64,000 nucleotides of DNA from Lunularia cruciata (lineage: Eukaryota; Streptophyta; Marchantiopsida; Lunulariales; Lunulariaceae): positions 50,052,291-50,116,290 of the forward strand of contig OX419755.1 of NCBI GenBank assembly GCA_948567375.1, in the 5' to 3' direction. Positions 9,959 to 60,448 of the stretch are shown one piece after another (the stretch's first letter is position 1; each line of letters starts with the position of its first letter). The notes beneath the pieces are model-generated. The model was not told where the DNA came from, searched no databases, and saw only the letters and a program-made list of their open reading frames with translations. A program made the position numbers and the translations under genes.

Positions 9959-10443
9959 CATGGCCATCCAAAAATCACCAAATGAATGGGACCATGTCTT
10001 CTAGATCCTATGCCCCTAGTAAGGAAATGTCTACTGGTAGGGTCTTCTTGTAACCCTTGACTGCTAACATAAGTAATAAATTGGGATACCAATAGGCCAA
10101 GTGTACCACATGATATAGAGAGACTTGCCTAACAATCTCATCTCTCTCTACATACAAGTACCTTTGTACTTGTATACCCGCCTACAATATCATAACAAGT
10201 CTAGTGTTAACCCTACCAAACAACTCCAATAGACATACTCCCTCTCTTGGATACTACCAAGCAATGAGTGTGGTGTCTAAAAGGATCAAGGTAATTGACT
10301 CTAGATGCTTATATTCACATTGGTCTCTTGGTGGTACAAAGGCTCGACTCCAAGCCTGTTGCACCAATTGATCCGCATGTTGCTGCAATGTCTTCCCTGA
10401 ACTCCATAATGGAACATTCAAGGTGGATAGAATGATCCCACTC
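9959..10443 (-). pseudogene. E2 C5 cytosine methyltransferase, N-terminal part (motifs I to IV)
   Basis: Minus translation gives GVCLLELFG (motif I, SAM binding) and YLYVERDE (acidic residue of motif II/III), then runs to the GWP before the catalytic PCQ, where element C inserted. Homologous to the E1 methyltransferase at 35,240-36,215. E2 keeps CAG at two sites where E1 has TAG (the AL-Q-QH and LVQ-Q-AW positions) but shares two other TAG codons with E1. Broken by C, B1 and in-frame stops. Confidence 0.8.
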
Positions 10444-14223: not shown

Positions 14224-15461
14224 CACTTGCACTCCAAATCCAAGTGATCTCCTTTGGTATTGGAGTATCCTTTGCATGGGTGTTCTCCTCGAATAAGTCA
14301 CTAGGCCAAGTAATAAAACCATTGAAAGCTTAAAGTAATGTTGCCATGGTCTTGGATAATAGTGAGCCAAGATTGCTACTTATTGAAGCATACTAGTAGG
14401 CAACATACCCATCTCTCACTTGACTACCAACTTGGTCTACAGGAGGCTATCTCCTACCAATAGTCAATACCCATGGGGTATAATATTGCTCCACCAATTA
14501 GCACATCATATGACTCAATTATTATCGTAATGGCCTAATCTCTCACCATAGAGCTATCAATCAGATGATTGGGCTGAATCTGGATAGTAAGCTCTCTACA
14601 TATGATGTATTGTGTAGAACTAAAGATGTCCTCCTAAAGATGTCTAGATCTAAAATAGATACCTCTCCATATCGGTATTTAGTAACTCTAAATTGATAAC
14701 TATAGCCTTCCCCAACATAAGAAGCTATGCACCAAAGTCCATAAGAACCTCTATGGTATATAGATCTTCGTTGAAGGTCCCACCAAACAAAAACTCCCAA
14801 TCTAGTTATCCAATAGGACAACTCTAAGTGTAAACCATGCTTGCTCAAAGGCCAATTTAGTTGGTAACTCATCCAATCTAGTCGTTACTACTTGCCATAA
14901 ACCACTAGTTATTGAGCAGATCCCATGCTCCTCAACCAAGTCAATTCCACTATCAACCACCTCTGCTCTAGAAGCAAGAACCACATCATCCCTACTATCG
15001 CAAAGCATGGTAGCCAACAAGAAGAGTAGAGCTGGGTCAACTTCCAATGTAAACATGTTGCCAATTGACAATTAAGGGAAGCACATAATCAACTAAGCCA
15101 CCTCCAACATTGAGCTAGACCTAATCAATGTAGTAGTAGGTGGTTGACTAGTAGGTAGTCTATCATGCACCCCATCACCACCTATCACACCTACACAAGG
15201 ATGCAAAGGAGCTATGGATATTGTCTATAGTGCCTCAAAGAGTATAAATGATTAGGGGAGACTGACATGTCTACCAACCTCTCCTCTTTGCAAGTCTAAC
15301 TCTACTAATGCTCCTCTAGGCTTTGGAGCACATACTTCACTCCTAGTCAATATTGTAGATGCATCCACTTGTGTTGCTCTACACATGAAGTCCAAGACAT
15401 CTCACCAACATATGAGGTGGAAGCCTCAACACTTGAATTTGATATCCTTTGAGCTATGGTC
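14224..15461 (-). pseudogene. E2 protease region and linker to methyltransferase
   Basis: Matches E1 36,392-37,620: the linker before the methyltransferase and the retropepsin-like segment (LPTKLAFEQAWFTLRVVLLDN, cf. E1). Unlike E1, the frame changes (14,872 and 15,071 ORFs lie in different frames), so this copy has indels as well as stops. No product expected. Confidence 0.7.
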
Positions 15462-16197: not shown

Positions 16198-17780
16198 TCT
16201 CTACCTTCTATGATACATCTTCAACTTATCATGGTTAATCCTATCAAAGTATTCTTCTCCAAACTCCTTGAGATCATAGGTGTAATTTCCTCAGACCTTC
16301 TCTACTATGAAAGGTCCAAAGTACTTAAGCAAAACTTCTTTTGCACTCTCTTGAATCGAATGGAATCAAACAACATTACTCAATCACCTTCTTTGGAAGG
16401 CTACACCTTCTTCTTGCCTTGCCTCTTGTCATAGCTCTCCTTTTGTTTTCTTTGGGCTTGCTACACTCGAACCACAGCAACTACTCTTGCCTCTTCTAAT
16501 TCCATGAGTTGATCCTTCCTTGACTTCTGTGCATCACCTCCTTGTGCTTTCTTCAATCTCCTATGAATGCTTTGGAAGGTAGGAAGATCAAAGTGAATAA
16601 GTAACGTAGACTCAATACCATATACCAATTGAAATGGAGAATATCCAATGGAAGTCTTCATGGTTATCCTATACTACCACAAAACTGCATGAATGCTCTT
16701 ATCCCCATGATGTTTAGCCTCCTACATTTCTGCATCTTTGGCCAACATCATGTACAAGGTCTGATTGGTTCTCTCTACCAAGCCATTGGAATTTGGCTTA
16801 TAGGATGTAGTTACTCTATGTGTGATAGAGAAATGTCGTTGCATGGCTATAATAATGCTTCCTGTAAACTCTCCTCCTCTATCAACAACTAACTCCAAAG
16901 GGCACCCAAACCTAGTGATAATATGTTCATGAAGAAATCTCTCAACTTCATCTTCATTCTTGTCCCTCAATGGTCTAGTCTCAACCCACTTGGTAAGATA
17001 ATCAGTAACTACCAAAATATACCAATTGTTCCTTAGGGTTCTATTAAGAGGACCTACAAAATCAATTCCCCACTTCTTAAAAGGTCCTAGCAATGGAATT
17101 GATCTAAGTGGTGGAGTGGAAGTAGACTTTCTAGTAAAAGCTTGACAAACATGACAAGTTTTGCAATAATCAAGACAATCCTTCAAAATCCCTCTCCAAT
17201 GGTAACTTGCATATAGAATCTTGAAAGTAGTCACATTTCCTGCAAAGTGTCCTCCACACACTAAACCTTCATGAAACTCCTTTATGAGTAGGTTAACCTC
17301 TTCCTTACCCACTACTCTCCAAAGCAAACCATTTGCTCTTTGGTGAAAAAGAATATCCTCCACCCTTGTGTAAGGTCTAGATCTTGCTGCAAGGGCCTTC
17401 CTCTATCTAGCATGCATCCCTTCTGGATAGTTACCTCTTGTCACAAAATCCATAATCTCCTTATACTCCCTTGGAACCTCTTGAGTGATTGAGATTATCA
17501 TGAGCTCCTCATCCGAGAAAGAATCATCCATTGGCTCATCTCCATCATGATCATAGGCCCTAGATAACAAATCAACATTTGCATGTTTCTTTCTTGGCCT
17601 ATCTTCAATGGTGTAGTCATATTCAGACAAGAGTATCATCCACCTTGCTAGCCTCCCTTCCACATTAGGCTTGTTGAAGATATACTTCAAAGACTTGTGA
17701 TCTATGACAATGGTGGCTTTCCCTACAATCAAGTAGTGTCTAAACTTCTTGAGACCAAAGATCACTGCCAACCCTTCTCT
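16198..17780 (-). pseudogene. A4 integrase and RNase H, broken
   Basis: Homologous to A5 gag-pol from the RNase H Glu (REGLA) to the integrase C-terminus. Open stretches 17810-17403, 17363-16722 and 16661-16461 carry the RNase H TDH/IDH-type and ANVDLLSR motifs, the integrase CKTCHVC zinc ligands and the core DFVG, DRGGEF and ERTNQ residues. Stops and frameshifts separate them. E1 cuts the gene at 17780 and the upstream part resumes at 40854. Confidence 0.9.
17776..17780. other. Target site duplication of E1, left copy
   Basis: TCTCT here is repeated at 40854-40858; A1 and A5 show the uninterrupted A sequence (ACCCTTCTCTCTCC on this strand), confirming E1 as one insertion. Confidence 0.85.
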
Positions 17781-18451
17781 GTTGTGTGTATATACATTGC
17801 TACACAACATACATCACTGTCAACATCATACACTATAGAAGCACCACTCACACATAAATCATACATAGACTCTAAAGTGCAACAATAATCAGATTGTTTA
17901 CCACTCTCAACTCAACTCAACTCAGATCAATACTTGATCTATCACTCTATAAATTGCTAACAACTGGGCACTGGTTATAGTGAAGCCACACCCACTCTAG
18001 CTAAGAGAATCCAGGTGATGCTTGCCAGCCTCTGTCCACCATAGCCAGGAACTCGAAGGCTCAACATTAGAGAAGTGAGCTCTCTAGAGCTGCACTTTGA
18101 AAGTATACCCCCTGGAATCAAGCTAGGTCTGAACCCTAACGGTCCCGCTGAAGGCACACTCAAAGGTGCAAATGGTACAAAGTGACTTCATGGTGGGCCC
18201 CACCGTGAAGTCAGTACTCCAAACACAAAATCTGACTGTCAGAAAGTAGTCTCAAAGAAAATGCTGAAATAACTCTAACTACTATCACTAGAACTCCAGT
18301 GTCCGAGCAATCTAGATGCAACACTACAAATGGTGTGATAGTTGTTGTGTGTATATACATCACTACACAACATACATCGGTGTCAACATCATACACTATA
18401 GAAGCACAACTCACACATAAGTCATACACAGACTCTAAAGTGCCGCAATCA
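17781..18451 (-). repeat. E1 3' LTR (17886-18451) plus a 105-bp repeat of its own start (17781-17885)
   Basis: The part 17886-18340 matches the 5' LTR at 40409-40853. 18341-18451 is a further segment that is repeated, diverged, at 17781-17885, on the other side of the shared core (GTTGTGTGTATATACAT...). The 5' LTR lacks this segment. A purine-rich AAGGAGG on the minus strand adjoins 18451, so the LTR probably begins there. See the finding on permutation. Confidence 0.7.
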
Positions 18452-18599: not shown

Positions 18600-19248
18600 A
18601 ATGAACTAACTATAAGTCAAGTACATCTAGGACATAACTACTATCCCTGAGGAACCACCGTGAGGAGAAAATTCATGCATGCCATATGCCATCCTCTCAA
18701 ACAGCTATCACACACTAACATAGTAGCAGCTCCACTAGAAGAGCCACATAACATACACCTCAAGCCTGCACATACAAGTGCCAAGCTTGGGTCCATAGTA
18801 CCATCAATGTTTGGGAGGTTGTATGGCACACAATTGCACAAATGATCCTTCCAAACAACACAATCACGTCCTTCTAACACAAGGACTCTAGATGGCAAAA
18901 CCACACGCACTCTCAAGATAGTGCGGCCTGTCAAAACATCAAGTGTCATCGGTGTTGTCTACTATAGATATACATAGTCTCCTAGATGAAATTGACGGAT
19001 CAAGGGTCTTTAACCTCCTCCTTGAATGGTAGCATAGCGTAAAGTATCTCTATGCTGAGCAATCGCCAAGTTCTCAAAGGCCATTGACATCACTCTCCAA
19101 AAGATCCTGCCCGTTGAGAACATGCGCTCATCCATACATTGGGTCATCCAAGTCCAAAACTATAGTAGCATCTTGACGAATGGCTATAGGTAACTCTGGA
19201 TCTCATCTATAGAGTAGAAAGTACATCTATAGAGTACAAAGTACAGTA
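18600..19248 (-). pseudogene. E1 integrase C-terminus with PHD finger
   Basis: The minus frame reads an integrase C-terminal segment (IAQHRDTLRYATIQGGG, GDYVYL), a beta-rich stretch (LDVLTGRTILRVRVV, VLVLEGRD), then a PHD zinc finger: CMLC, CDSC, GWHMAC and, after two TAG codons, CPRC, i.e. a full C4HC3 ligand set. PHD fingers usually bind histone H3 tails, so this may play the targeting part that a chromodomain plays in C. Several TAG stops break it. The upstream integrase core is absent; A3/A2 sequences abut it. Confidence 0.8.
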
Positions 19249-31631: not shown

Positions 31632-32322
31632 TGTGAGCCAGCCTGTCTCTAACTCAGGATGAACCTCTAATGGCTATTATGGTAGCGCACTATGGACTAA
31701 GAAGGCAAGGAACCCCAACTCCATCATACTCCTCCAAGTCTAACACTCCAAGACTCAAGACATTGCTCACTAGAGAACTCAATGATAGAGAGATAGTTGC
31801 AAATGAAAAGATGATGAGTACTTCCTCACCCCTTGTTTATGTACTTGTGAAATAGTTACGTACCAAAGTTACTAATTACCGTAGTAACTCAAGTTACTAG
31901 ACTAAAAGTCAAGTAAAGTCAAAAGTAGAAAGGAATATCCATTCACATGGGCACATTCTCCTAAGCATGGGGTCTTATCTTGACCCAACCTCTAAGTCAA
32001 CGATTCCTTCACATAGGCTATCCTTGGACTAAAGAAGAATCCAAAACAAAAAGGCTTGCGGGCCCAAGAGTTCTCAACTCTTTCCTCAAAGCCAAACACT
32101 TAGGAATAATACCAAGTCAACACACTAAAATCCAAAATACTAATGCTCATCTTTCCTACTTCCTCTAAAGTAAGGTCCCCTCTATCTTAGCTATGACTAA
32201 ATTTAGCTAACCATGACTAATATAGAACCATCCTTTATCTCTATATAAATAATATCTCTTAAGTACTTGTAATACCAAGCTAACTATCACAATACCACAC
32301 ACATGCACAAATGGGTGTTATA
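31632..32322 (-). repeat. A3 5' LTR (691 bp)
   Basis: A LTR in minus orientation; its outer end is TATAACACCC on the minus strand (TGTTATA on plus). The primer site lies just left, with TGGTTC preserved. Confidence 0.92.
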
Positions 32323-33233
32323 ATACGCTTTACTCCAAAATGCCCTAGCTCCTCATGAGCATGATGAACCAACTATGGTCTTTGAGATGGAAGTGGTACT
32401 ACTCGCACTCTACCATCTTCCCATACACGCAAAAGGTGTCTGCCTCCAATCTGAATCGTCTTGCTCGTTGAAGGACATGGTCTCTCTCCTTGGCCCCAAC
32501 TGTGCCATCTACAACACCAGTGTGAAGATATTCCATCACTAAGACATCATCATGAATGTCTTGCTGAACTGTACCAATATCTTCACTCTCTGGATCTATA
32601 ACCTTAATAACTCCTCCTTTATGTGCTGAGAGAGATACCACCAAAGCCTCTGAAAATATACATAGAAAGGCCGATGCATGCCAACCTGGCACCATCTCCT
32701 CATCTGTCTCACCATGCCAACGTGCTCTGGTCTGATCCTACTAGCTTGGACATGGGTTTCTACTCAACCCATTTGCATCACGGTTCACCACTCTAGGTCT
32801 ATGAACAACCATGAAATCAAACCCTTGTAAAATCAGAGCCCTTTGTCCAAGCTTCCCTGCAAGCTTGTCGGACTCCATCAACCACTTCAGAGGCTGATGA
32901 TCAGTGATGAAAGTGAAGGGGTTACCAAATAGGTAACATTGAAAATGTGCTACTACCCAAATTGCTACCAAGCACTCTCCCTCATATGAACTATACTTCA
33001 CCTCCGCTGAATTGTTGGAGCGACTAGCATAGGCCACCACGAACTCCTTCTCCTCATCATCGTGTTGGGTGAGCACCACTCCAAGCCCCAACATACTCCA
33101 ATCAGTATGAACCTGAAATGGTTGCCCTCTGATTGGTCTCCTCAAAATAGGAGCAGATGTCAACCTCTCTTTGAGCTCCACAAAAGCTCTCTCCTGCTCA
33201 TCTCCCCAACACCACTCATGTGTAAACTTGGTT
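32323..33233 (-). pseudogene. E1 RNase H and start of integrase
   Basis: RNase H reads FQVHTDWSMLGLGVVLTQ, YEGECLVAIW, ITDHQPLKWLMES and NRDANGLSRNP, with all four acidic positions present. It belongs to a Ty3/gypsy lineage distinct from A, C and D. A linker (32695-32399) follows, then the integrase zinc motif HHAHEELGHFGVKR ending at the A3 LTR. The catalytic core of integrase is not found anywhere in E1. Confidence 0.87.
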
Positions 33234-33924
33234 TGTGAGCCGGCCTGTCTCTCACTCAAGATGAACCTCTGATGGCTATTATGGTAGCGCACCATGGACT
33301 AAGAAGGCAAGGAACCCCAACTCCATCATACTCCTCCAAGGCTAACACTCCAAGACTCAAGACATTGCTCACTAGAGAACTCAATGAGAGAGAGATAGTT
33401 GCAAATGAAAGGATGATGAGTACCTCCTCACCCCTTGTTTATATACTTGTGAAATAATTACGTACCAAAGTTACTAATTACCGTAGTAACTCAAGTTACT
33501 AGACTAAAAGTCAAGTAAAGTCCAAAAGTAGAAAGGAATATCCATTCACATGGGCATATTCCTCTAAGCATGTGGTCTTATCTTGACCCAACCACTAAGT
33601 CAAGGATTCCTTCACATGGGCTATCCTTGGACTAAAGAAGAATCCAAAAAAAAAGACTTGCGGGCCCAAGAGTTCTCAACTCTTTCCTCAAAGCCAAACA
33701 CCTAGGAATAATACCAAGTCAACACACTAAAATCCAAAATAGTGATGCTCATCTTTTCTACTTCCTCTAAAGTAAGGTCCCCTCTATCTTAGCTATGACT
33801 AAATTTAGCTAATCATGACTAATATCGAACCATCCTTTATCTCTATATAAATAATATCTCTTAAGTACTTGTAATACCAAGCTAAATATCACAATACCAC
33901 ACACATGCACAAATGGGTGTTACA
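33234..33924 (-). repeat. Solo A LTR between E1 RT and RNase H
   Basis: Minus-strand A LTR (691 bp) without internal sequence. On the minus strand the flanks are GACT and AACC; both derive from GACC by one transition, so a 4-bp duplication in an LTK codon run is likely. Confidence 0.88.
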
Positions 33925-34640
33925 AGTCAGCTTTGTCAAGGCCTTGGCAATGGCACTAAATCCTCTAGCATAGCAGTGATAGAAGTTTGCCAACCCAAGG
34001 AATCCTTGCACTCTGCTCACATCCATAGGCCAAGGAATACAGGCAATAGCCTCCACCTTGGTCTGCTGAACACCAAGTCCTGCGGGGTAGATAGTGTGAC
34101 CCAAATACTCAACGTGCTTGTGGAAGAACCTACACTTCCCAAGATGTAATTTGAGTCCATGAGATCTCAACCTCTCAAATACCTCCAACAATTGTCTCTC
34201 ATGCTCCTTCACAATAGTGTTATAGACCAAAATGTCATCAATATAACATCGAGCAAAATCCAATCCAATTAGGATTCTATCCATGATCCTGTGGAACTCA
34301 ACAAGAGCATTCTTCAACCCAAACGGTAAGAACCTCCATTGATATAACACATCCTTACTGTGAGGATCAATAGCCTAGAATGATGTCTTGGACTTATCCT
34401 CCTCCTTGATCGGCAATTGATGATATCCTGCTCAAAGATCCAAAAGACCTTTGCATGCCTAATCACATCAAAAATCTCCTCCGGTGTAGGCATGGCATAC
34501 CAATCAGCCCTAGTCTGTTGGTTGATAGGACGGTAATCTCCACACATCCACCTATTTGTGTAGTTGCCATGCATATCCTTCTTGGCTGGCATCATTGTTG
34601 TTTATGCATACTCTCCATGTGAAATTTCCACCAAACCAGC
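33925..34640 (-). pseudogene. E1 reverse transcriptase
   Basis: RT motifs in order on the minus strand: MPAKKDMHGNY, RMCGDYRPIN-like (RWMCGDYRPIN), a palm start around 34,440 with stops, WRFLPFGLKNA, the catalytic YIDD (about 34,235), and YLGHTIYPAGLGV. The first catalytic Asp region is degraded and the frame shifts near 34,350-34,400. The gene is inactive. Confidence 0.88.
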
Positions 34641-35239
34641 CTCAAAAAGGTCACTACTCCGGCCCTGAATCAATGTCCTCTCCATATCACTATATTGATA
34701 AGGACATCGGAAAATTGGTGTATCGCTAGTCAGCTCAATCTATATACCAAGTCCCTTCAAAGCACCCAAATCCTTCATATTGAAGGCAAAACAACTCGTG
34801 TGGCTCCCCAAGAACCTCCAAACCCTCCATCTTTCCTCTCCCATAAACTTGGGTCCAAGGTCTAGCTCCCAAGTATCCTCTGTAACTGTCGTAGGAGTGG
34901 AAGACGTACTGATTGGCTGCTACACTGGGCCCTTTGGAGCAACAGTGTCATGTCCCTAACCACTAGAGGTCCCAACCTCTATATGAAAAACTCCCTCCAC
35001 TCTGGCTACAAGCTCCACACGTCCTCTAGCTACATCCCAAGTGGACCAAGGGTGTAATCCAAGTAGCCCACGCTCACCTAGATGAACTCCAAGTAGACCA
35101 CTCTCCTTAGTAGCTACTGGATGTGTCCTAAGAATACCATGTCCACTCGGTCCATCACCCCCAGCATGTGCCTGAATTGTCTTGATAGGCATGGGGCTCA
35201 CAAGTGTCTAAGTGGTGATGCCTATCAAGCGCATCCTAC
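34641..35239 (-). pseudogene. E1 linker between methyltransferase and RT
   Basis: About 600 bp with one open stretch (35201-34956) in a different frame from the methyltransferase, Gly/His-rich, then stop-rich sequence. No domain recognised. The shift from the upstream frame near 35,200 may be decay or an original -1 frameshift. Confidence 0.45.
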
Positions 35240-36215
35240 GCTACTCTGCCAACCCAAGGCTTACAATCCAGGTCCATAGCTTGACCTAACACCTGACACC
35301 TGGATGCCTCTAACATTGCTGGAACAGCGGTAATACCGGTATGAAAACCCATTGCACGCTCTCTCTCATCAACATTGGGCTACACCAATTGCTGTAACTG
35401 TGAGTCCCAAACCAGTCTAGGTCCTCCCTCTTGAAAAGCATGAAAGCATGGGAAACTCATGAGTGTGGGAAATACGGCTCTAGGCTATCCAACTAGGTTC
35501 ACCATTGCCATAGGTGACATATCAGCCACTACCACTGTTTGAGACTAATGCCCAACATCCAAGATATCATCAACAAGGATGTGGTCAAGTCGCTGAATCC
35601 CATCATAAGCACGTTGTAGAACCTCTCTAGGTAAGAGGTTTGTCCACCAAAGACAAAGACGATGAGCTCGTGATCCCACTCTGGCTGCATCTAACAATAC
35701 AATTGGTCCCATCCAAGAATGGAATTGATGTGTACTTGCCACCACTCTGGTGTGAGAATCACCCATCAAAGGCATGTTCTCCAAAAGGTAAGCTGGAGAA
35801 ACGGACTAATGAACTTGGAGATGTTGTAGTATTTGTAACATCTCCCTAAACACACCAGAACAAGGATCTTGAAGACCCAAGACCCTACCAGCACTTGAAT
35901 ACCCCTGACATGGCCATCCAGAAATCACCAAGTGAATAGGCCCATGTCTCTCCAAATCATGCACCCCCAGTAAGGAAATGTTTGCTGGTAGGGCCTTTTG
36001 GTAACTTCTGACTACTGACATCGATAATAACTCTAGATACCAATAGGCCAAGTGTGCCACATGATGAAGAGAGACTTGCCTAGCAATCTCATCTCTCTCT
36101 AAATACAAGTACCTCTATACTTGTATACCCGCCTATAATACCGCAATTAGTCCGGTGCTAATCCCACCAAACAACTCTAATAGACATATCCCCTCTACTA
36201 GATACTACCAAGCAA
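35240..36215 (-). pseudogene. E1 C5 cytosine DNA methyltransferase (TAG-interrupted)
   Basis: About 320 codons in the minus frame hold the C5-methyltransferase motifs in order: I, GICLLELFGGISTGL (SAM binding, about 36,140-36,190); the acidic RYLYLERDE; IV, HLVISGWPCQGYSSAG with the catalytic Cys (about 35,905); VI, YLLENMPLM (ENV-like, about 35,780); VIII, SRAHRLCLWWTN (about 35,655); and IX/X, DERERAMGF (about 35,355). The order of motif I first resembles DNMT1/DNMT3 rather than the rearranged DRM order. It lies between protease and RT in one frame with gag. About eight TAG codons interrupt it, so no enzyme is expected unless they are read through. Confidence 0.9.
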
Positions 36216-36749
36216 TGAGTGTGGTATCCAAAGGTGTCAAAGGAATCAACTCTAGACGCTCATCCTCACATTCATCTCTTGATGGTACAAAGGCTCCACT
36301 CCAAGCCTATTGCACCAATTGATCTACATGTTGCTACAATGCCTCCTCAAAACTTCACAATGAAACATCAAAGGTGGATGGAACAATCCCACTTGTACTC
36401 CAAATCCAAGTGATCTCCTTTGGTACTGGATTATCCTCTATATGGGCGTTCTCCTCCAAAAAATCACCAGGCCAAGTAACTACACCATTGAAAGCTAAAA
36501 CTGATGTTGCCATAGTCCCAGATTGTAGTGAGCCAAGACTACCACTACTGAAGCGTATTGGTAGGCAACATACTTGTCCCTCACCAGATTGCCAACCTGG
36601 TCTATTGGAGGCTGTCTCCTCTCAATAGTCAATGTTGAAACCCATGGAGTATAACACTCCTCCTCCAACTAGCACATCATATGACTCAACTATTATCGCA
36701 ATAGCCTAAGCTCTCACCACCAAGCTATCAATCGGATGACCAGGCTAAA
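36216..36749 (-). pseudogene. E1 linker between protease and methyltransferase
   Basis: About 180 codons in the gag frame, Trp- and Gly-containing, with TAG and TGA stops; no domain recognised. The E2 copy of this segment is split by B1. Confidence 0.55.
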
Positions 36750-37533: not shown

Positions 37534-38990
37534 CTATGTTGCTCCGCACATGAAGTCCAAAGCATCTCTATCACTAGCATATGAGGTGGAAGCCTCAACA
37601 CCCAAATCTGATCTCCTCTGAGCAATAGCCATACTAGCCAATCTTTGCTCCAACTGCTCAATCTGAGTAGCCATAGCTATATCAAAAGTAAGGGCAGGTA
37701 ATGCACTCCTACTAGGTGTAGATCCTCTACCACCACCTCGTCCTCCATGAACTAGAGCTCCTCTACTACCTGCCATAGCAGCCCTACCACTTTGTAACTC
37801 CAAGTGTAGGTCAAAACACGGATCACTAGTGTGACCAAATTTATGGCAATGCTCACACTGCCTCTATGCTGACTATGATACACTTGAGGTATTGGGTCCA
37901 CTACCCTGAGTACACTCTCTTTGATGGTGAGGTCCACCACAAGTCCAACAAGCAACACCAACACTCACTGGCTACTATTGACCCAAAAATGAAGGTAAGG
38001 ATCTAACTCCACTAAGCCCTCCACTCGCTCCATATGATCTAGGCTGTCCACCTTGTCCTCAAAAACCAACTGGGTGTGGTGCACTCTGCTGCACTCTTGA
38101 AGAAGTCATAGCCGTGGATGAGGTCTTCCTACCAAATCCAAATATCACCACCCTCTCTTCTACCACGTTGAGCTCAATATGCTCAGCCAAACCAAAGACC
38201 ACTGCCAAAGTAGGCAAAGTAGTCTGTAATAACATAGCATCATAAACTCTATGCCGCAACTCCCTGTCCAATATCCCATACCAAAATTGGACTGTTTGGG
38301 CCTCAGTAACTCCTTGAGTGAAACTGATCAGCCACCTCATGTGAGTGTATGCCTTGCATAGGCTCTCTCCAGCCTTCCGTTGGAACTCTTGCAAGCTCCT
38401 CAGCTTGTCAATCTGCACTCCCTATTAGTTTTGCCTCAAACACAAGAAGAACTCCACCATAAGGTTAAACCCCGGTACCACACCACCTCCTATAGTGGTA
38501 CCTCCACTTGTAGTAGCACTATCTCCAACTAGTGCACCTCCACTAGCTCCATCAACACTACTCAAGCTAGAACTCGTAGGTACAACCAATCTACTCCTGG
38601 CCACCAAACCTGAAGTGATAGAGATATAGTTTGGAGACCAATACTGTCTCCATAACTTGATCTCCTCCAAATAAGCTCTCCTGAACTCATGGTAGTCATC
38701 CATTGGTGGACCCTCTATATGCTGAAACAACCCGTTCCATACCATAAAAGGTGTAAACAAAGTCGGGTTCTGCATTTGCTACAGATCACTCCAACTATGA
38801 AACTCCTGGATGAAGTCATCTAACTCAATGGTACCCATTGTACTATAGTACCGCCTAGGGCCTTTAGAGGCCCCATAAATCTTGTCCATGACCCACAACA
38901 ACGGTGCGGACACACCAAGTGCACTCTCAACTAAATCAGCTCTTGTGTCAATCTCCTCCCTCATTAGGACCTAAGATATAGGCTGATACC
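37534..38990 (-). pseudogene. E1 Gag with two zinc knuckles
   Basis: The capsid-like region (YHEFRRAYLEEIKLWRQYW; LRSLQEFQRKAGESLCKAYTHM; QFWYGILDRELRHRV) has the layout of retrotransposon Gag. Two zinc-binding clusters follow: CWTCGGPHHQREC near 37,930 and CEHCHKFGHTSDPC near 37,840. A Gly/Arg-rich stretch and a short coiled-coil (QIEQLEQRLASMAIAQRR) come next. The frame has no indel but about ten in-frame stops, nearly all TAG. The most plausible start is the Met at 38964, though the frame is open some way upstream. Confidence 0.82.
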
Positions 38991-40408: not shown

Positions 40409-40853
40409 TGTAATCAGATTGCTTATCACTCTCAACTCAGCTCAACTCAACTCAAATCAATATCTGATCCATCACTCTATAAACTGCCAACAATTGGGCA
40501 CTAATTATAGTCAAGCCACATCCACTCTAGCTAAGAGAATCTAGGTGATGCTCGCCGGCCTCTGTCCATCATAGCCAAGAACTCAAAGGCTCAACATTAG
40601 AGAAGTGAGGTCTCTAGAGTTGCATTTCAAAAGTATACCTTGTGGACTCAAGCTAGATCTGAACCCTAACGGTCTCGCTGATGGTGCAAATGGTGTAGAG
40701 TGACAGTGGGCCCCACCGTGAAGTCAGTACTACAAACACAAAATCTGACCATCGGAAAGTAGTCTCTGAGAAACTGATGAAATAACTCTAACTACTATAA
40801 CTAGAACTCCAGTGTCCGAGCAATCTAGATGCAACACTACAAATGGCGTGACA
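40409..40853 (-). repeat. E1 5' LTR (445 bp, lacking the first ~110 bp)
   Basis: On the minus strand it runs from TGTCACGCC to CTGATTACA and matches 17886-18340 of the 3' LTR. The outer segment 18341-18451 of the 3' LTR has no counterpart here. The host A4 sequence with TSD TCTCT follows at 40854. Confidence 0.8.
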
Positions 40854-52626: not shown

Positions 52627-53318
52627 TGTAACACCCATTTGTGCATGTGTGTGGTATTGTGATATTTAGCTTGGTATTACAAGTACTTAAGAGATATTAT
52701 TTATATAGAGATAAAGGATGGTTCTATATTAGTCATGGTTAGCTAAAGTTAGTCATAGCTAAGATAGATGGGACCTTACTTTAGAGGAAGTAGAAAAGAT
52801 GAGCACCACTATTTTGGATTTTAGTGTGTTGACTTGGTATTATTCCTAGGTGTTTGGCTTTGGGGAAAGAGTTGAGAACTCTTGGGCCCGCAAGCCTTTT
52901 TGTTTTGGATTCTTCTTTAGTCCAAGGATAGCCCATGTGAAGGAATCCTTGCTTTAGTGGTTGGGTCAAGATAAGACCACATGCTTAGGGGAATATGCCC
53001 ATGTGAATGGATATTCCTTTCTACTTTTTGACTTTACTTGACTTTTAGTCTAGTAACTTGAGTTACTACGGTAATTAGTAACTTTGGTACATAACTATTT
53101 CACAAGTATATAAACAAGAGGTGAGGGGGTACTCATCATCCTTTCATTTGCAACTATCTCTCTCTCATTGAGTTCTCTAGTGAGCAATGTCTTGAGTCTT
53201 GGAGTGTTAGCCTTGGAGGAGTATGATGGAGTTGGGGTTCCTTGCCTTCTTAGTCCATGGTGCGCTACCATAATAGCCATCAGAGGTTCATCCTGAGTGA
53301 GAGACAGGCCGGCTCACA
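52627..53318 (+). repeat. A5 5' LTR (692 bp)
   Basis: TGTAACACCC to GGCTCACA. Contains an inverted repeat GTAACT-TG-AGTTAC, a TATA box, and several TTGACT (W-box core) motifs. Confidence 0.96.
53107..53115 (+). promoter_or_regulatory. A5 LTR TATA box
   Basis: TATATAAAC preceded by CACAAG and conserved in nearly all A LTRs; transcription would begin some 30 bp downstream, near 53,140-53,150. Confidence 0.65.
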
Positions 53319-53322
53319 TTTT

Positions 53323-53340
53323 TGGTTCCGTTGCCGGGAC
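53323..53340 (+). promoter_or_regulatory. A5 primer binding site
   Basis: TGGTTCCGTTGCCGGGAC. Compared with the plant tRNA-Asp complement (TGGCGCCGTTGCCGGGGA), it differs at positions 4-5 and the right edge. The TT at 4-5 recurs in every A copy. Confidence 0.7.
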
Positions 53341-53359
53341 CTCTCTAGAAGGCAAGATA

Positions 53360-53530
53360 ATGTTCCGCGTCCAATTCTACATTAGGCAGAAGGAGGCTAT
53401 GAGAGCTCACTTGGAGAGAACATTAGGAGAGGAGAGGGCTGAACTTATGTTAGAGAACCAAGATCCATTTGTATACCCTGTAGTTCATTATGATGTCTTT
53501 GAGGTGATTTTGTACATCTTGTACACATGA
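53360..53530 (+). CDS. A5 leader small ORF, 56 aa, unknown
   Basis: Begins MFRVQFYIRQ just after the primer site and ends YILYT. The same frame is open in A1 (8203-8370), A2 (20143-20313), A3 and A4 with few changes. An in-frame Met in the LTR would extend it to 77 aa. A second open frame (53560-53793; A1, A2 and A4 match) follows. They may be exons or remnants of one upstream gene. No domain seen; expression uncertain. Confidence 0.35.
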   Translation: MFRVQFYIRQKEAMRAHLERTLGEERAELMLENQDPFVYPVVHYDVFEVILYILYT

Positions 53531-54178
53531 GAGGAATTGGAGAGATTGTGTGAGGTGGATTGCAGATTTTGGGGATTAAGGTGATTTTGGGCAAAATCTC
53601 AAGTTTGAGATCTGAACTTGAGATTTCTACACATGATAGCTTGGGTTATCTTTCAGTTAGCACACTTGAAATTATTGAGAGAGCTTCTATGCGCACTGGG
53701 CTAGAATTTTTGAAAGTTGATAGGGTAAAGTGCTCCCGCAACTGCATGCTCTCTGGAAAATTGTACAGAGTCTGCCATTTCTTCAATGTTTAGTGAATTG
53801 TCCTGAAAATTTCCAAGAAAATTCAGTGCATTGTATCCTACCTGGTGCCACAAAAATTAGAGAGAGATCATTTTTGCGCAGTGCGTTATGAGTTTTTGAA
53901 GTGAGGGGGGTGGTTTTCAGACCAAATCTGAAATATGGGTGCTGAATAGAAAGGTGTCTAGGCCAAATGGCTCGATGAAAAGATCTAAAATTTTGCAGTG
54001 AGGGACGCCCTAGAGTTGTGATCAAGTGTGGAAAATTTCAGAGGACTGTGACATATTAGTTGGGAGATTTGAGTGACATTGTGAGGAAGGGTCAATTCTG
54101 CAGAGTGGAGATCTCATGCATGAGAAGTTTGAGATCAACAAAAAGCATGTTTGAGTGTTTAGATTCATCTTGGGGAAC

Positions 54179-54652
54179 ATGGAGAGTCATCAAGAGTGGA
54201 AATTGAGATTATGCAAGGTTCCCCAAGGGTTTGAGGTGATTGTAGGGGTGGATTTGAGGAAAAGAGAGTTTACAATAGAATTTGAAGAGAGTGTTGAGAG
54301 GATCCAAAAACCTACACCACTTGGAGGAAAGAGTGAGTCTAAGTGCTTTCTATGTGGAGAGAAGGGACATAAGGCAAGTTCATGTCCATTGACCTTTGAG
54401 AGCAAGAGATTGAGGGAAAGGAGAGGCTTACTTGACTTGGGTTTGCATGTTGGACCTTCTTCACCAAGATTGGGAGGGAGAAGATCTAAGACCAAGGAGT
54501 TGTGTGAGGTTTGTGGAGTTGAAGGACTTCCAAAAGGACATGAGTGTAGTGGAGTAAAAGCACTTTTGGAAACTTTGGTGAAGGATCTTGGAGAGAGTCT
54601 TAGTACAGCTACAGAAATACTACCACCTTCATCAGCTAGTTCTCAAGATTAG
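54179..54652 (+). CDS. A5 leader ORF, CCHC zinc-knuckle protein (157 aa)
   Basis: I chose the ATG at 54179 because all other copies start at that Met (MEGHQEWKL/MESHQEWKL); the frame extends 8 codons further only here. CCHC knuckle CFLCGEKGHKASSC at residues about 57-70 and a second cluster CEVCGVEGLPKGHEC near 110-124, basic linkers, C-terminus SSASSQD. Separated from gag by 229 bp and out of its polyprotein. Zinc knuckles bind nucleic acid; a packaging or chaperone role is inference. Its position recalls the ORF1 of Ogre-type Tat elements, but I cannot show homology. Confidence 0.8.
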   Translation: MESHQEWKLRLCKVPQGFEVIVGVDLRKREFTIEFEESVERIQKPTPLGGKSESKCFLCGEKGHKASSCPLTFESKRLRERRGLLDLGLHVGPSSPRLGGRRSKTKELCEVCGVEGLPKGHECSGVKALLETLVKDLGESLSTATEILPPSSASSQD

Positions 54653-54881
54653 TGATGGAGATAATCTTTCAACTTATGGATAAACTATCCATGAGAGTTA
54701 GATTAATATGCACTCTAGGATTTGATGTTGCTATAGAAATCTTGGAGCAACCTGAACCTTTTGTGTTCCCTAGAGTGGATTATTCTCAGATGGTGTTAGT
54801 CATGTATATACTCTATTAGTAATAGAGTGAGAGAAAAAAAAAAATTTATTTGAGAGAAAAGAAAGATAGTGAGGGGTTAAG

Positions 54882-57800
54882 ATGGGGAAACTTCCGGTTT
54901 TCTTTGGCAAGGATGGAGAAGATGTGGAGGCCTTTGTGAGAGACTTCAAGAGAGCTTGCATAGGAAACAATGAGAGGAGGAAGAATGAGTGGGCCTCATT
55001 ATTACCAGATTTCTTTGAGGATGCAGCACTTACATGGTATGAGTCAGAATACCAAAAGAGAGAGAGGAGAGAGGGGGAAGAGGAGTCTTGGGAGACTTTG
55101 ACTTCAGCACTCATTGAGAACTTTCTTCCTGATGAGAGTTATGAGAGATTGATGAGTGAGGTTACATTTCTCAAGCAAGGAGATGGAGAGAAAGTGAGAG
55201 TCTATGTGGAAAGAGTGGAAAAATTGGAGTCCAGATTTCGCATAGTGTTGAGGAAGGGTGGGGATGATGTGGAGACTACAATGATTGGCATAGGGGCCAT
55301 GCTCACCAAGAATTTTGTGGGAGGATTGAGACCACAAATTAGAAGCAAGGTGAGATATGAGAAACCTTCTTCCAAGGTTGAAGCTATCAAGATCGCAATT
55401 CGTATGGAGGAGAGTTTGGAAGGGGATGAAAGTGATTTGGTGGTGAAGGAGGTTGTGCATCCTCCTCAAGGCTACAAGTATGGTGGAACTTCTGATACTT
55501 TGGTGACAAGGGTTGCACCACAAGTAGTAGTTGCTCCAGTTCTTGCACCTCCACCAAAAGATCCACTCCAAACCATCACAGAACAACTTGCGGATCTCAA
55601 GATCAATGTGGTGCAATTATGGGAGAAGAGAGAGGTGGATCAGAATGTAGGGAGAGGGCCTAGGAGTTATGGAAACCATCCATATAGAGGAGGCCAACCA
55701 GCCAACAATTTCAATGATAGAAATTGTTTTGGTTGTGGGGGAAGAGGCCATATCCAAAGGAATTGCCCAAATTCCACTTACCATGGAGGAAGGGGTTATG
55801 AGGGAGCCAATAGAGGGAAAGAGGGAGGTAGTGAAACCCAAGTGGCTCCTAATCCCAACAAAGGTAAGGGGATAGCATCCATAGATGTGGTTGAGAGCAA
55901 GTATGAGAAGGGAGAGTGCTCAAACTCCAAGGGTCCTAATTTGGAGCTTTTGGCACAAGAGAAGAAGAGAGCTCGTTTTGCAGAGGATGTTCACTCTTCT
56001 CAAGGATTTACTTCAAGCAAGGATACTCCTATGTCTACTAGGAGCACTCGCACCTCAACACCATCAACAACAAAGACTCCAAGGAAGAAGTTGGGGATGG
56101 AGGACTTCTTGATCTCCAAGCAACAATGGAACTACAATGTGTTGGAGGATGTTGGTAGTCACAAGGCTAACATCACAGTGGGCCAATTAATTGCTTTGAA
56201 CCCTACCTTGAGAAAGGAGCTTAGAGGTGGTTTGAGTTCTACAAGGAGCAAGAAGAAGAAGAAGGCAAAAGTTCCAATATCAATGGGGGTGGTGGATGCC
56301 AAGCCAGCACCATGGGAAGCTTGTGAATATGCCTCCAAGATTGATGTGAGAGTGAATGGTCACAACATCAAGGATGCATTGGTTGATGGAGGATCAGCAG
56401 TGAATGCCATGTCAGAAAGGTTGATGAAGAAGTTGGGTATGATACCCTCAAGAGCTTCAACATTTGTGGTGAGCATGGCAAACAAGCAACAAGTTCGACC
56501 AGTAGGAGTGATGGATAAGGTGGTAGTTTCAGTTATGGGAGTTCAAAATCTCATGACTTTCCAAGTCTTGAAGGATTCAAGCTATGACTTACTTCTTGGG
56601 AGGCCATGGTTGAGAGCAGCACGCACAACTGATCGATGGCACAAAGGGTACTTAAGGATTGGGCCATCAAACCATAGAGTCATTGTTCCTGTGACTAACA
56701 CCACCAACACTTCACATTCAGATACCCCATCTTCTGATTATTGGGAATCTGATTCTGAAGGAGGAGCTTCAGGTGTGGACACAAGCATGGAAGAGGAGAC
56801 TTCCACGGAGGAGGATGAATCTGAATCTGATTCAGATGTGTATCCTTTGTGTGCTATGGATTTTGCACCTAAGCCAGAGGTTTTGAAGGACCCAGATAAA
56901 TCACCATTGACACTTGAGGAGGTAGAGAGAAGGTTATCTACCCTCAAGTATGGCCCAAATGTTACCAAGGAGGAGAAGGTGAGATTTGAGGAGATTTTCC
57001 GCAAGTTCATCCATGTGTTTGCTTTTAGTTACAAGGATTTGAAGGAAGTCACCTTGGAGGAGCACAAGATAGAGGTGGAGTCACATGCAAGACCAATCCG
57101 CCAAAAGCAACGTCGCATTAGCCCACCAATATCTTTGGTTGTGAAGGAGGAGATTGATAAGCTCAAGGAGGCTGGATTTATCTTTGAGGTGGAGAATTCA
57201 GAATGGGTGTCTCCAATTGTCATTGTGAAGAAAAAGAATGGCAAGCTTCGGGTATGTGTGGATTACAAGAAGCTCAATGCTGTTACCAAGAAGGACTACT
57301 ACCCATTGCCATTCATTGATGAGATCTTGGAGGAGGTTGCAGGTCATGAGAGGTACAGTTTTGGAGATGGTTATAGTGGATATAACCAAATAAAGATTGC
57401 ACCAGAGCATCAACAAATCACCACATTCACCACACCTTGGGGAACTTACGCTTTCAAGGTCATGCCTTTTGGGCTTTGCAATGCTCCAGCCACATTCCAA
57501 CGGTTCATGAACAAGGTATTTGAACCTTTCATTGGGAAATTTGTGAGAGATTTCATTGATGACTTTTGTGTCTATGGGAGCAAGGAGGAGCACTTTGAGC
57601 ACCTAATCAAAGTCTTGCAACGCTTGGATGAGGCAAATGCATCACTCAACCCAGAGAAGTGCATTTTTGGATGTGAAGAAGGTCTACTTTTGGGGCACAT
57701 CATCTCCAAGGATGGAATAGCAGTTGATCCTGAGAAGGTGAGGAAAATCTCAGACCTTCCATTCCCTTCAAGCTTGACAAAGTTACGCCAATTCTTGGGA

Positions 57801-59708
57801 ATGGTTGGGTACTATAGGAGGTTCATCTTCTCATTTTCCAACAAGGCTTATGCATTGACCATCTACATGAAGAAGGGTGTAGATTACATGGTGATTTTGG
57901 AAGACAAGGAGGCTCTCAAAGCTTTTGAGGAGCTCAAGCAATCCCTTGTTGTAGCTCCAATTCTTGCTAAACCTGATTGGAGTAAGCCTTTCATCCTCTA
58001 CACTGATGCTTCTAATGTAGCTATAGGATGCACTCTTAGTCAATTAGACCAAGATGGGCATGATCATCCAATAGCTTATGCTAGTAGGCAGATGGTTTCA
58101 GCAGAGAAGAACTACTCTGTCACAGAGAGAGAAGGGTTGGCAGTGATCTTTGGTCTCAAGAAGTTTAGACACTACTTGATTGGAGGGAAAGCCACAATTG
58201 TCACGGATCACAAGGCTTTGAAGTACATCTTCAACAAGCCTAATGTTGAAGGGAGACTAGCAAGGTGGATGATTCTCTTGTCTGAGTATGACTACACAAT
58301 TGAGGATAGGCCAGGAAAGAAACATGCAAATGCTGATTTGTTATCTAGAGCCTATGATCATGATGGAGATGAGCCAGTAGATGATTCCTTCCCGGATGAG
58401 GAGCTCATGACAATCTCAGTCACTCAAGAGGTTCCAATGGAGTACAAGGAGATTGTGGATTTTGTGACAAGAGGTAACTATCCAGAAGGGATGCATGCTA
58501 GGGAGAGGAAGGCCCTTGCAGCAAGATCTAGACCTTACACAATGGTGGATGATATTCTTTTTCACCAAGGAGCAGATGGTCTACTTCGAAGAGCAGTGGG
58601 TAAGGAAGAGTCTATCCTACTCATAAAGGAGTTTCATGAAGGTTTAGTATGTGGAGGACACTTTGCAGGAAAGGTGACTGCTTTCAAGATTCTAGATGCA
58701 GGTTACCATTGGAGAGGGATTTTCAAGGATTGTCTTGATTATTGCAAAACTTGTCATGTTTGTCAAGCTTTTGCTAGAAAGTCTACATCCACTCCACCAC
58801 TTAGATCAATTCCATTGCTAGGACCCTTTGAGAAGTGGGGAATTGATTTTGTAGGACCTCTCAATAGAACCCCAAGGAACAATCGGTACATTGTGGTAGT
58901 TACTGATTACCTTACCAAGTGGGTTGAGGCTAGACCATTGAGGGACAAGAATGAAGATGAAGTGGGTAGATTTCTTTATGAACGCATTATCACTAGGTTT
59001 GGATGCCCTTTGGAGTTGGTTTCTGATAGAGGAGGAGAGTTTACAGGAAGCATTACTACAGCCATGCTACGACATTTCTCTATCACACATAGAGTAACTA
59101 CATCCTATAAGCCAAATTCCAATGGCTTGGCAGAGAGAACCAATCAGACCTTGTGCATGATGTTGGCCAAAGATGCAGAAATGGAGGGGGCTAAACATCA
59201 TTGGGACAAGAGGATTCATGCAGTTTTGTGGGAGTATAGGACAACCATGAAGACTTCCACTGGATATTCTCCATTCCAATTGGTGTATGGTATTGAGTCT
59301 ACCTTACCTATTCACTTTGATCTTCCTACCTTCCAAAGCATTCATAGGAGATTGAAGAAAGCACAAGGAAGTGATGCAGAGAAGTCAAGGAAGGATCAAC
59401 TCATGGAGTTGGAAGAGGCAAGAGCAGTTGCTATGGTTCGAGTGGAGCAAGCCCAAAGGAAACAAAAGGAGAGCTATGACAAGAGGCAAGGCAAGAAGAA
59501 GGTGGAGCCTTTCAAAGAAGGTGATTGGGTAATGTTGTTTGATTCCATTCGATTCAAGAGAGTACAAAAGAAGTTTTTGCCTAAGTACTTTGGACCTTTC
59601 ATAGTAGAGAAGGTGTGGGGAAATTACACTTATGATCTCAAGGAGTTGGGAGGAAGACACTTTGATAGGATTAACCATGATAAGTTAAAGATGTACCATA
59701 GAAGGTAG
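54882..59708 (+). CDS. A5 gag-pol polyprotein, 1,608 aa, intact
   Basis: One frame encodes all enzymes. Gag 1-~480 with zinc knuckle (C282, C285, H290, C295); aspartic protease with DGGS (D502) and LLLGRPWL (~571-578); RT with the first Asp in FGDGYSGYNQ (D829) and FIDD (D893, D894); RNase H with D1042, E1084, D1109, D1152; integrase with zinc ligands H1252, H1260, C1288, C1291 and core D1322, D1382, E1418 (35 residues between the last two); C-terminal KYFGPFIVEKVW and ending INHDKLKMYHRR without a chromodomain. RT and protease motifs (FGDG, DGGS) fit the Tat/Athila side of Ty3/gypsy. All catalytic residues are present. No frameshift separates gag from pol. Confidence 0.97.
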   Translation: MGKLPVFFGKDGEDVEAFVRDFKRACIGNNERRKNEWASLLPDFFEDAALTWYESEYQKRERREGEEESWETLTSALIENFLPDESYERLMSEVTFLKQGDGEKVRVYVERVEKLESRFRIVLRKGGDDVETTMIGIGAMLTKNFVGGLRPQIRSKVRYEKPSSKVEAIKIAIRMEESLEGDESDLVVKEVVHPPQGYKYGGTSDTLVTRVAPQVVVAPVLAPPPKDPLQTITEQLADLKINVVQLWEKREVDQNVGRGPRSYGNHPYRGGQPANNFNDRNCFGCGGRGHIQRNCPNSTYHGGRGYEGANRGKEGGSETQVAPNPNKGKGIASIDVVESKYEKGECSNSKGPNLELLAQEKKRARFAEDVHSSQGFTSSKDTPMSTRSTRTSTPSTTKTPRKKLGMEDFLISKQQWNYNVLEDVGSHKANITVGQLIALNPTLRKELRGGLSSTRSKKKKKAKVPISMGVVDAKPAPWEACEYASKIDVRVNGHNIKDALVDGGSAVNAMSERLMKKLGMIPSRASTFVVSMANKQQVRPVGVMDKVVVSVMGVQNLMTFQVLKDSSYDLLLGRPWLRAARTTDRWHKGYLRIGPSNHRVIVPVTNTTNTSHSDTPSSDYWESDSEGGASGVDTSMEEETSTEEDESESDSDVYPLCAMDFAPKPEVLKDPDKSPLTLEEVERRLSTLKYGPNVTKEEKVRFEEIFRKFIHVFAFSYKDLKEVTLEEHKIEVESHARPIRQKQRRISPPISLVVKEEIDKLKEAGFIFEVENSEWVSPIVIVKKKNGKLRVCVDYKKLNAVTKKDYYPLPFIDEILEEVAGHERYSFGDGYSGYNQIKIAPEHQQITTFTTPWGTYAFKVMPFGLCNAPATFQRFMNKVFEPFIGKFVRDFIDDFCVYGSKEEHFEHLIKVLQRLDEANASLNPEKCIFGCEEGLLLGHIISKDGIAVDPEKVRKISDLPFPSSLTKLRQFLGMVGYYRRFIFSFSNKAYALTIYMKKGVDYMVILEDKEALKAFEELKQSLVVAPILAKPDWSKPFILYTDASNVAIGCTLSQLDQDGHDHPIAYASRQMVSAEKNYSVTEREGLAVIFGLKKFRHYLIGGKATIVTDHKALKYIFNKPNVEGRLARWMILLSEYDYTIEDRPGKKHANADLLSRAYDHDGDEPVDDSFPDEELMTISVTQEVPMEYKEIVDFVTRGNYPEGMHARERKALAARSRPYTMVDDILFHQGADGLLRRAVGKEESILLIKEFHEGLVCGGHFAGKVTAFKILDAGYHWRGIFKDCLDYCKTCHVCQAFARKSTSTPPLRSIPLLGPFEKWGIDFVGPLNRTPRNNRYIVVVTDYLTKWVEARPLRDKNEDEVGRFLYERIITRFGCPLELVSDRGGEFTGSITTAMLRHFSITHRVTTSYKPNSNGLAERTNQTLCMMLAKDAEMEGAKHHWDKRIHAVLWEYRTTMKTSTGYSPFQLVYGIESTLPIHFDLPTFQSIHRRLKKAQGSDAEKSRKDQLMELEEARAVAMVRVEQAQRKQKESYDKRQGKKKVEPFKEGDWVMLFDSIRFKRVQKKFLPKYFGPFIVEKVWGNYTYDLKELGGRHFDRINHDKLKMYHRR

Positions 59709-59744
59709 AGAGACCTTCACTTTGAGGACAAAGTGAAAACTTAG

Positions 59745-59756
59745 TCCGGGGGTAAA
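59745..59756 (+). promoter_or_regulatory. A5 polypurine tract
   Basis: TCCGGGGGTAAA immediately before the 3' LTR; shorter and less pure than usual but present next to every A 3' LTR. Confidence 0.7.
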
Positions 59757-60448
59757 TGTAACACCCATTTGTGCATGTGTGTGGTATTGTGATATTTAGC
59801 TTGGTATTACAAGTACTTAAGAGATATTATTTATATAGAGATAAAGGATGGTTCTATATTAGTCATGGTTAGCTAAAGTTAGTCATAGCTAAGATAGATG
59901 GGACCTTACTTTAGAGGAAGTAGAAAAGATGAGCACCACTATTTTGGATTTTAGTGTGTTGACTTGGTATTATTCCTAGGTGTTTGGCTTTGGGGAAAGA
60001 GTTGAGAACTCTTGGGCCCGCAAGCCTTTTTGTTTTGGATTCTTCTTTAGTCCAAGGATAGCCCATGTGAAGGAATCCTTGCTTTAGTGGTTGGGTCAAG
60101 ATAAGACCACATGCTTAGGGGAATATGCCCATGTGAATGGATATTCCTTTCTACTTTTTGACTTTACTTGACTTTTAGTCTAGTAACTTGAGTTACTACG
60201 GTAATTAGTAACTTTGGTACGTAACTATTTCACAAGTATATAAACAAGGAGTGAGGAGGTACTCATCATCCTTTCATTTGCAACTATCTCTCTCTCATTG
60301 AGTTCTCTAGTGAGCAATGTCTTGAGTCTTGGAGTGTTAGCCTTGGAGGAGTATGATGGAGTTGGGGTTCCTTGCCTTCTTAGTCCATGGTGCGCTACCA
60401 TAATAGCCATCAGAGGTTCATCCTGAGTGAGAGACAGGCCGGCTCACA
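59757..60448 (+). repeat. A5 3' LTR (692 bp)
   Basis: Identical in length to 52627-53318; differences lie around the ACGTAAC and AAGGAGTGAGGAGG stretch. Followed by TSD AGGC and the resumed B3 sequence. Confidence 0.96.

Follow-up and report, generated by a model that had tools for sequence, protein, structure and literature searches.

KnitGypsy-Dnmt3 of Klebsormidium nitens is a Ty3/gypsy element that carries a DNMT3 domain in its Pol open reading frame (ORF) and has DIRS-like repeats, with a reported Ka/Ks below 0.2 (de Mendoza et al. 2018, PMC5890265). For the DNMT3 enzymes of dinoflagellate DIRS elements, the same article reports de novo CG methylation and proposes methylation of cDNA. 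These DNMT3-type enzymes agree with what the original prediction for the present locus had stated, that cytosine methyltransferases are already known in retrotransposons (PMC5890265).

Here we describe a window of 64,000 nucleotides from Lunularia cruciata (GCA_948567375.1, contig OX419755.1, positions 50,052,291 to 50,116,290). It contains a degenerate LTR retrotransposon of the Ty3/gypsy type, in which Gag, protease and a DNMT3-type methyltransferase come first and RT, RNase H, integrase and a PHD finger follow. Cytosine methylation is a main weapon of plants against transposons, and it is therefore puzzling that some elements bear a DNMT3 enzyme and retain it. The family is also found in the model plant Marchantia polymorpha, and so can be tested there.

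Anatomy of the window element

The element occupies about 40853-17780 of the minus strand, with integrase and a PHD finger as its last domains. Its parts are given below in element order; L001 is a related contig described further on.

40411-40853, minus: 5' LTR (part alignable to the 3' LTR), beginning with TGTCACGCC at 40853; 85% identity to 18338-17886 over 458 columns
37534-38889, minus: Gag with a zinc-knuckle region, interrupted by stops; its start, MDKIYGASKGPRRY, resembles MDGMYGAMKGPRRY of Marchantia protein P0114
36631-36984, minus: aspartic protease region, DSDA where relatives have DSGA; phmmer, protease stretch of P0142 against P0110 residues 295-412
35239-36216, minus: DNMT3-type C5 cytosine methyltransferase, 326 codons, from motifs, Pfam, phmmer and homologues; 7 in-frame stops and a frameshift near 35250
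34914-34922, minus: UAG CAG CCA, of the type UAG-CAR-YYA, likely a leaky stop that separates methyltransferase from RT; L001 equivalent at 3489
34443-34877, minus: first part of RT, in the frame of 34901; tblastn with L001 RT, 53%
33892-34443, minus: second part of RT, in another frame; tblastn with L001 RT, 58%; PF00078 at 7.8e-19 for 34374-33889
33234-33924, minus: single LTR from a different family, a foreign insertion that parts RT from RNase H; 97.8% to 59757-60448 and 97.5% to 52627-53318
32741-33298, minus: RNase H; PF17919 at 1e-30, PF17917 at 4e-29
32289-32809, minus: N-terminal part of integrase, cut by nested insertions; tblastn with L001 integrase, 43-49%
18623-19144, minus: end of the integrase, then PHD finger; 55% over 174 columns to L001; PF00628 at 4.5e-7
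17780-18338, minus: 3' LTR (aligned part 18338-17886); 85% identity to the 5' LTR stretch

Pfam gives no match for the Gag or the protease of the window copy. Neither the far end of the 5' LTR nor the middle of the integrase core could be located in the window, where a block of nested insertions separates the start of the integrase from its end.

The left (41139-40854) and right (17786-15462) flanks match adjoining parts of the gypsy element family of 54873-59708. Both break at the same spot of this host element, with a 4-5 bp target site duplication, GAGA/AGAGA. Because the flanks adjoin in the host element and overlap by 4-5 bp, one insertion accounts for both ends of the window element. The Gag-PR-RT-RH-INT order, the LTRs and the short target site duplication are those of Ty3/gypsy elements; in L001, too, the integrase comes after RNase H. 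No chromodomain, the mark of chromoviruses, is listed after the integrase of the window or of L001: a PHD finger is found there instead.

Two further observations concern repeats. The sequence TATATACACACAACA, with some similar sequence ahead of it, is present twice: at 18357-18343, immediately before the point where the alignment of the 3' LTR begins, and at 17794-17780, where that LTR ends. A Ty3/gypsy element from a different family fills 52627-60448. Its gag-pol frame, open over 1611 codons, lies at 54873-59708 between 692-base repeats (LTRs) of 99.4% identity, and many more pieces of its family lie across the window.

The window copy is dead. Its methyltransferase has seven in-frame stops, a frameshift and a catalytic Arg replaced by Cys (the second Arg of motif VIII), and nested insertions interrupt the element. 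Further stops fall in Gag and in the linker, and the protease DSG reads DSD. This copy itself could not methylate its own or target DNA. Some of the seven TAG stops sit at a Gln of the relatives (for example VLQAG, GQP), as would result from CAG turning into TAG at a CHG site. The observed/expected ratio of CpG is 0.20 in the window, 0.24 in the element stretch 38892-33930 and 0.78 in L001; the low value of the window is in line with a heavily methylated genome.

A methyltransferase of DNMT3 type

On the minus strand, from 36216 to about 35251, the window copy holds LELFGGISTGL, GWPCQG, LENM, AHRLC, FPTLMS and ERERAMGF, in this order. These stretches are methyltransferase motifs I, IV, VI, VIII, IX and X, respectively. 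With X placed at the seven stops, the domain matches PF00145 at E 3.1e-5 and 24 bits (cut-off 22), the matched stretch covering residues 94-154 only. Among the 36 PDB sequences listed by phmmer, DNMT3A is the top one (E 1.7e-9); other matches are HaeIII methylase (0.014), 4onj (0.015) and chains of DRM2 (0.021-0.022).

A profile built from 18 relatives finds DNMT3A at 7.3e-23, 4onj at 2.4e-14 and DRM2 at 1.3e-10; the matches of 4onj and DRM2 are confined to profile positions 60-188. Chains of DNMT1 and CMT are absent among the 36 (phmmer) and 55 (profile) PDB sequences listed. The entry 4onj, titled 'DNA methyltransferase', is a tobacco DRM, and such a partial match is expected for a rearranged domain. 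Since DNMT3A is the best match, and 4onj and DRM2 are weaker and limited to positions 60-188, the window domain is classified by sequence as DNMT3-type: its motifs I-X are unrearranged, and it resembles DNMT3 more than it does DRM, DNMT1 or CMT.

The domain has 109 homologues (best E 2.8e-128), which, together with the DNMT3A match at 1.7e-9 and the 24 bits of PF00145, excludes a chance resemblance. The motifs, PF00145 and DNMT3A bear out the core of the original prediction, a C5 cytosine methyltransferase between the protease and RT of a Ty3/gypsy element; the Pfam DNA_methylase search that it had proposed is the one given above, with a score over the cut-off. It had also placed the methyltransferase in one frame with gag and followed by RT. 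Gag, protease and methyltransferase do share a frame, which the RT of the window copy does not: past the frameshift near 35250 the remainder of the domain and RT continue in another frame.

Relatives and domain order

The domain query returned 109 proteins among 1814 candidates, and a query with a longer piece 48 among 4864, together 157 relatives. Nearly all were retrieved through the methyltransferase, so that elements of the same clade without it could hardly appear. Named sources in the domain search are Calypogeia fissa, Sphagnum, Marchantia and Riccia, plus P0023, labelled as a bacterial MAG; the nearest relatives by themselves point to a bryophyte-like host. The methyltransferase is accompanied by at least one other retroelement domain in 52 of the 157 (from Marchantia, Calypogeia, Riccia, Sphagnum and metagenomes). 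It follows the protease and/or precedes RT or RNase H in 48 of these; in the other four (P0151, P0152, P0156, P0158) it adjoins the integrase, with RNase H before it in three. This minority clade places the DNMT between RNase H and integrase.

A third search, in which scoring was limited to the 8000 candidates with the most shared words, returned 17 proteins. Three of them (P0159-P0161) add cases of a methyltransferase beside the integrase; in seven gypsy proteins (P0164-P0170) no methyltransferase was found. A Mesostigma viride protein (P0163) bears one, and its upstream LDSGAQPL is protease-like by eye, marked by neither phmmer nor Pfam. Viral contigs gave no usable relative, L012 being a match of 37 residues. 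Remote relatives (22-28%) were also reached through the pattern AH[RH]xRx[WYI]WTN, on contigs of Chitinophagaceae, Flavobacterium and other bacteria (L002-L011).

An intact relative is L001. This contig of 9285 bases belongs to a MAG that bears the label Synechococcales cyanobacterium; it is sensibly read as a eukaryotic element contaminating a cyanobacterial MAG. P0023, too, has a bacterial label. A 127-base overlap of its ends closes the L001 assembly into a circle. Its open Gag-protease-DNMT frame runs across the contig ends to 3491, and RT-RNaseH-integrase-PHD follows directly in the same frame, at 3492-6635.

The window itself holds parts of a second copy, E2:

14224-15454, minus: Gag end, protease region and spacer of E2; 78% DNA identity to 37623-36390
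9958-10442, minus: N-terminal half of the E2 methyltransferase; 82% DNA identity to 36393-35908, 65% protein identity over 93 residues

The two matches adjoin at 36390-36393, so that E2 resembles a single copy into which 14223-10443 has been placed. The DNA matches of 82% and 78% confirm that E2 repeats the N-terminal half of the methyltransferase in the same context. The window is a nest of insertions, a setting in which a fragment of a host DNMT3 could have landed in one element by chance, or an assembly chimera could have arisen. We give this explanation practically no probability: it is refuted by the same placement in E2, in Marchantia, Calypogeia, Riccia and Sphagnum proteins and in the intact L001. 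E2 and dozens of relatives have this domain in the same position, which makes the methyltransferase an element gene and not a chance capture in one copy, as had been predicted.

A likely leaky stop between methyltransferase and RT

The sole break between the two long ORFs of L001 is the junction AAG TAG CAA TCA, with TAG CAA TCA at 3489-3497 (plus strand). The first Met of the second ORF is residue 117, inside the RT stretch (29-294) and 11 residues ahead of the Pfam match; separate initiation would therefore lose the start of the RT region. The homologous place in the window reads GTG TAG CAG CCA. The methyltransferases of the window and L001 are only 44% identical, yet the stop context is alike in both. 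UAG-CAR-YYA is the tobamovirus readthrough signal (PMC3542737), and its type I pattern, UAG plus CARYYA with an in-frame ORF beyond, is found in both L001 and the window.

This context was read in the DNA of two elements, L001 and the decayed window copy. Counted on both strands, TAG-CARYYA occurs at 2 of the 2261 TAGs of the window (34922 and 10066, both minus) and at 2 of the 190 of L001 (3489 plus, 4494 minus). The window's other instance, at 10066 inside E2, was rejected as chance, being out of frame with the E2 match that starts at 10265. Both junction stops fit UAG-CAR-YYA, and the DNMT would hence be made with Gag. In the window's part of the family, these contexts strongly suggest that the Gag-protease-DNMT and RT halves are joined by UAG readthrough.

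Could the stop between methyltransferase and RT be decay or noise, RT being expressed through splicing or a frameshift? Further stops are numerous in the window copy, two of them in the same linker (35210 and 34958), and several gene models (Marchantia P0116, P0118, P0121 and P0125, Riccia P0052, Sphagnum P0149) omit sequence between methyltransferase and RT in an intron-like manner. The in-frame stop of L001, however, is the only break between two long ORFs, and CARYYA comes after both stops, a chance of about 1 in 512 for each at equal base frequencies. We judge decay, splicing or frameshifting to be quite unlikely, and retain readthrough.

The proteins bear on how far this arrangement extends. 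Protease and methyltransferase occur without RT, RNase H or integrase in 33 relatives. In 25 of them the protein ends 62-172 residues past the domain; the remaining eight end 0-31 residues past it and are hence uninformative. Recurrent C-terminal endings, in a list that includes protease-less proteins, are SATK, SATQ and SATE, SSSN, PSTD, and EQVS or EEVS. Twelve of the 25 have a longest listed contig that exceeds the ORF by at least 2.7 kb, a comparison of sizes and not of ORF placement. Six proteins (P0144, P0147, P0148, P0150, P0153, P0157) run from methyltransferase into RT without a stop, which confines the leaky stop to part of the family: supply at the Gag level is not universal.

The window element might also be another copy of the KnitGypsy-Dnmt3 type, with the DNMT3 domain in Pol, expression at the Pol level and no special arrangement on the Gag side. 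The two share their superfamily, DNMT class and broad plant lineage (PMC5890265), and methyltransferase and RT lie in one ORF in P0144, P0147 and P0148. Against it, the ORF ends soon after the methyltransferase in L001 and in those 25 of 33 relatives. We regard such a Pol-level copy as possible, but lean against it. A leaky stop as such is not new in LTR elements, since one of a fungus has a leaky stop lacking CARYYA (PMC3441728). If real, the arrangement on the Gag side of a leaky UAG sets the amount and the partners of the enzyme, and argues for a job inside the particle.

Trees of the methyltransferase and of RT-RNaseH

A quick methyltransferase tree was computed from 88 rows, made up of those with at least 255 domain residues, the window counted twice, and part of DNMT3A as outgroup. 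The six rows that adjoin the integrase sit in one starred clade of eight (SH-aLRT 99, no bootstrap), whose other two rows, P0097 and P0106, are pieces without visible neighbours. If these two are counted as different, the label of domain position has to change three times, with starred branches requiring two or more of these changes. P0083, P0089, P0092, P0096, P0150, P0153, P0155 and P0157 form a separate methyltransferase clade (100); in P0083, P0092 and P0096 motif VI has EHV for ENV and motif IX LNTF for LPTF.

The RT-RNaseH tree has 19 rows, 12 with and 7 without a methyltransferase, the window row being pieced together. The 12 methyltransferase-bearing rows fall on one side of a branch (100/99). 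Rows of the order RNaseH-DNMT-integrase form one group (100/98) and those of protease-DNMT-RT another (86/91, not starred). One uptake of the methyltransferase and one later move would fit this grouping. As all but one of the 7 rows without it come from one search, a single origin is suggested but not proven.

Catalytic residues and proposed working

Protein-sequence conservation (not dN/dS) was counted in 85 near-complete relatives, picked by domain length, a choice that favours intact ones. The Cys of motif IV is present in 82 of 85 (1 Tyr, 2 gaps) and the Pro before it in 79 (Glu in 5). The Glu of motif VI is kept in 81 (Lys in 4) and the Asn after it in 77 (His in 8). The two Args of motif VIII are found in 80 and 81.

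We consider the following working probable: an element of Gag-protease-DNMT3 type whose two halves would be joined by readthrough, with the DNMT acting on cDNA in the particle and a PHD finger steering integration, the window copy itself being dead. Most translation would stop at the UAG after the methyltransferase, giving the enzyme at the Gag level and leaving RT and integrase as a minority product. The few ribosomes that pass the UAG would add RT, RNase H, integrase and PHD. The methyltransferase may then enter the virus-like particle, released by the element's protease, and could methylate new cDNA before or at integration. The PHD finger of the integrase may read histone tails and so direct where the element lands. 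Methylation of its own cDNA appears to be the likeliest role of the enzyme, and such elements may in this way mark their own DNA; the mark might protect the cDNA, silence new insertions or have some other use.

The methyltransferase fold might also have been retained for a purpose other than DNA methylation, for instance to methylate RNA or to play a structural part in Gag. Synthesis on the Gag side would suit a particle or RNA-binding role, RNA has been discussed as a possible target of LINE enzymes (PMC5890265), and motif IV is PCQ where DNMT3A has PCN. The retention of catalytic residues in 80-82 of the 85 relatives speaks for DNA methylation, as does the CG methylation reported for the dinoflagellate enzymes (PMC5890265). 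Another job for the fold seems to us unlikely, and methylation of cDNA stays the preferred role.

A longer history can be proposed tentatively, at somewhat less than even confidence. A streptophyte gypsy lineage would have taken up DNMT3 once, long ago, and divided a DNMT3-like tool into two parts. The methyltransferase would be made at the Gag level before a leaky UAG and be present in the particle, and the integrase would carry a histone-reading PHD finger; the element would arrive methylated or set methylation at its landing site. One clade would have moved the methyltransferase from before RT to the gap between RNase H and integrase, or the reverse.

Comparison with known systems

Like KnitGypsy-Dnmt3, the present elements combine a DNMT3-type methyltransferase with a streptophyte Ty3/gypsy element, and the domain is unrearranged with its key residues kept (PMC5890265). 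Compared by description, KnitGypsy-Dnmt3 has its DNMT in Pol, whereas L001 and the window have it in the Gag-protease ORF before the likely leaky stop; a DNMT inside the Pol ORF with RT is found in P0144, P0147 and P0148, but not in L001 or the window. By the same kind of comparison, KnitGypsy-Dnmt3 has DIRS-like repeats, whereas the LTRs of the window element are ordinary ones and its integrase is followed by a PHD finger. Among the matches of our three protein searches, about a quarter of which carry names, Mesostigma viride appeared and no protein named Klebsormidium did.

The dinoflagellate SymbioDIRS-Dnmt3 elements likewise bear a DNMT3 and have two coexisting domain orders, but are of another type, the DIRS class with a tyrosine recombinase (PMC5890265). 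An orchid (Phalaenopsis) Ty3/gypsy element with an AlkB m6A demethylase also gained a nucleic-acid-modifying enzyme; it differs in the enzyme, in the RNA target and in the use of an additional ORF (PMC9289625). The words Marchantia, protease and PHD are absent from the main text of PMC5890265, the available parts of PMC6453930 and PMC10952607 hold nothing on element-borne DNMTs, and our literature search, of partial coverage, returned no report of DNMT-bearing elements in bryophytes.

The best sequence match is to the cellular DNMT3A/B (8te4_A, 2qrv_A), which have the same motif order. Motif IV is PCQ in the elements and PCN in these enzymes. Cellular DNMT3A/B carry ADD and PWWP domains; neither was found in the same chain as an element methyltransferase, and the PHD finger of the elements sits on the integrase.

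Gypsy elements with DNMT3 were known before in Klebsormidium (PMC5890265). To these, the present analysis adds a methyltransferase that, like Gag, precedes a likely leaky stop, a terminal PHD finger, and a sister clade with another domain position.
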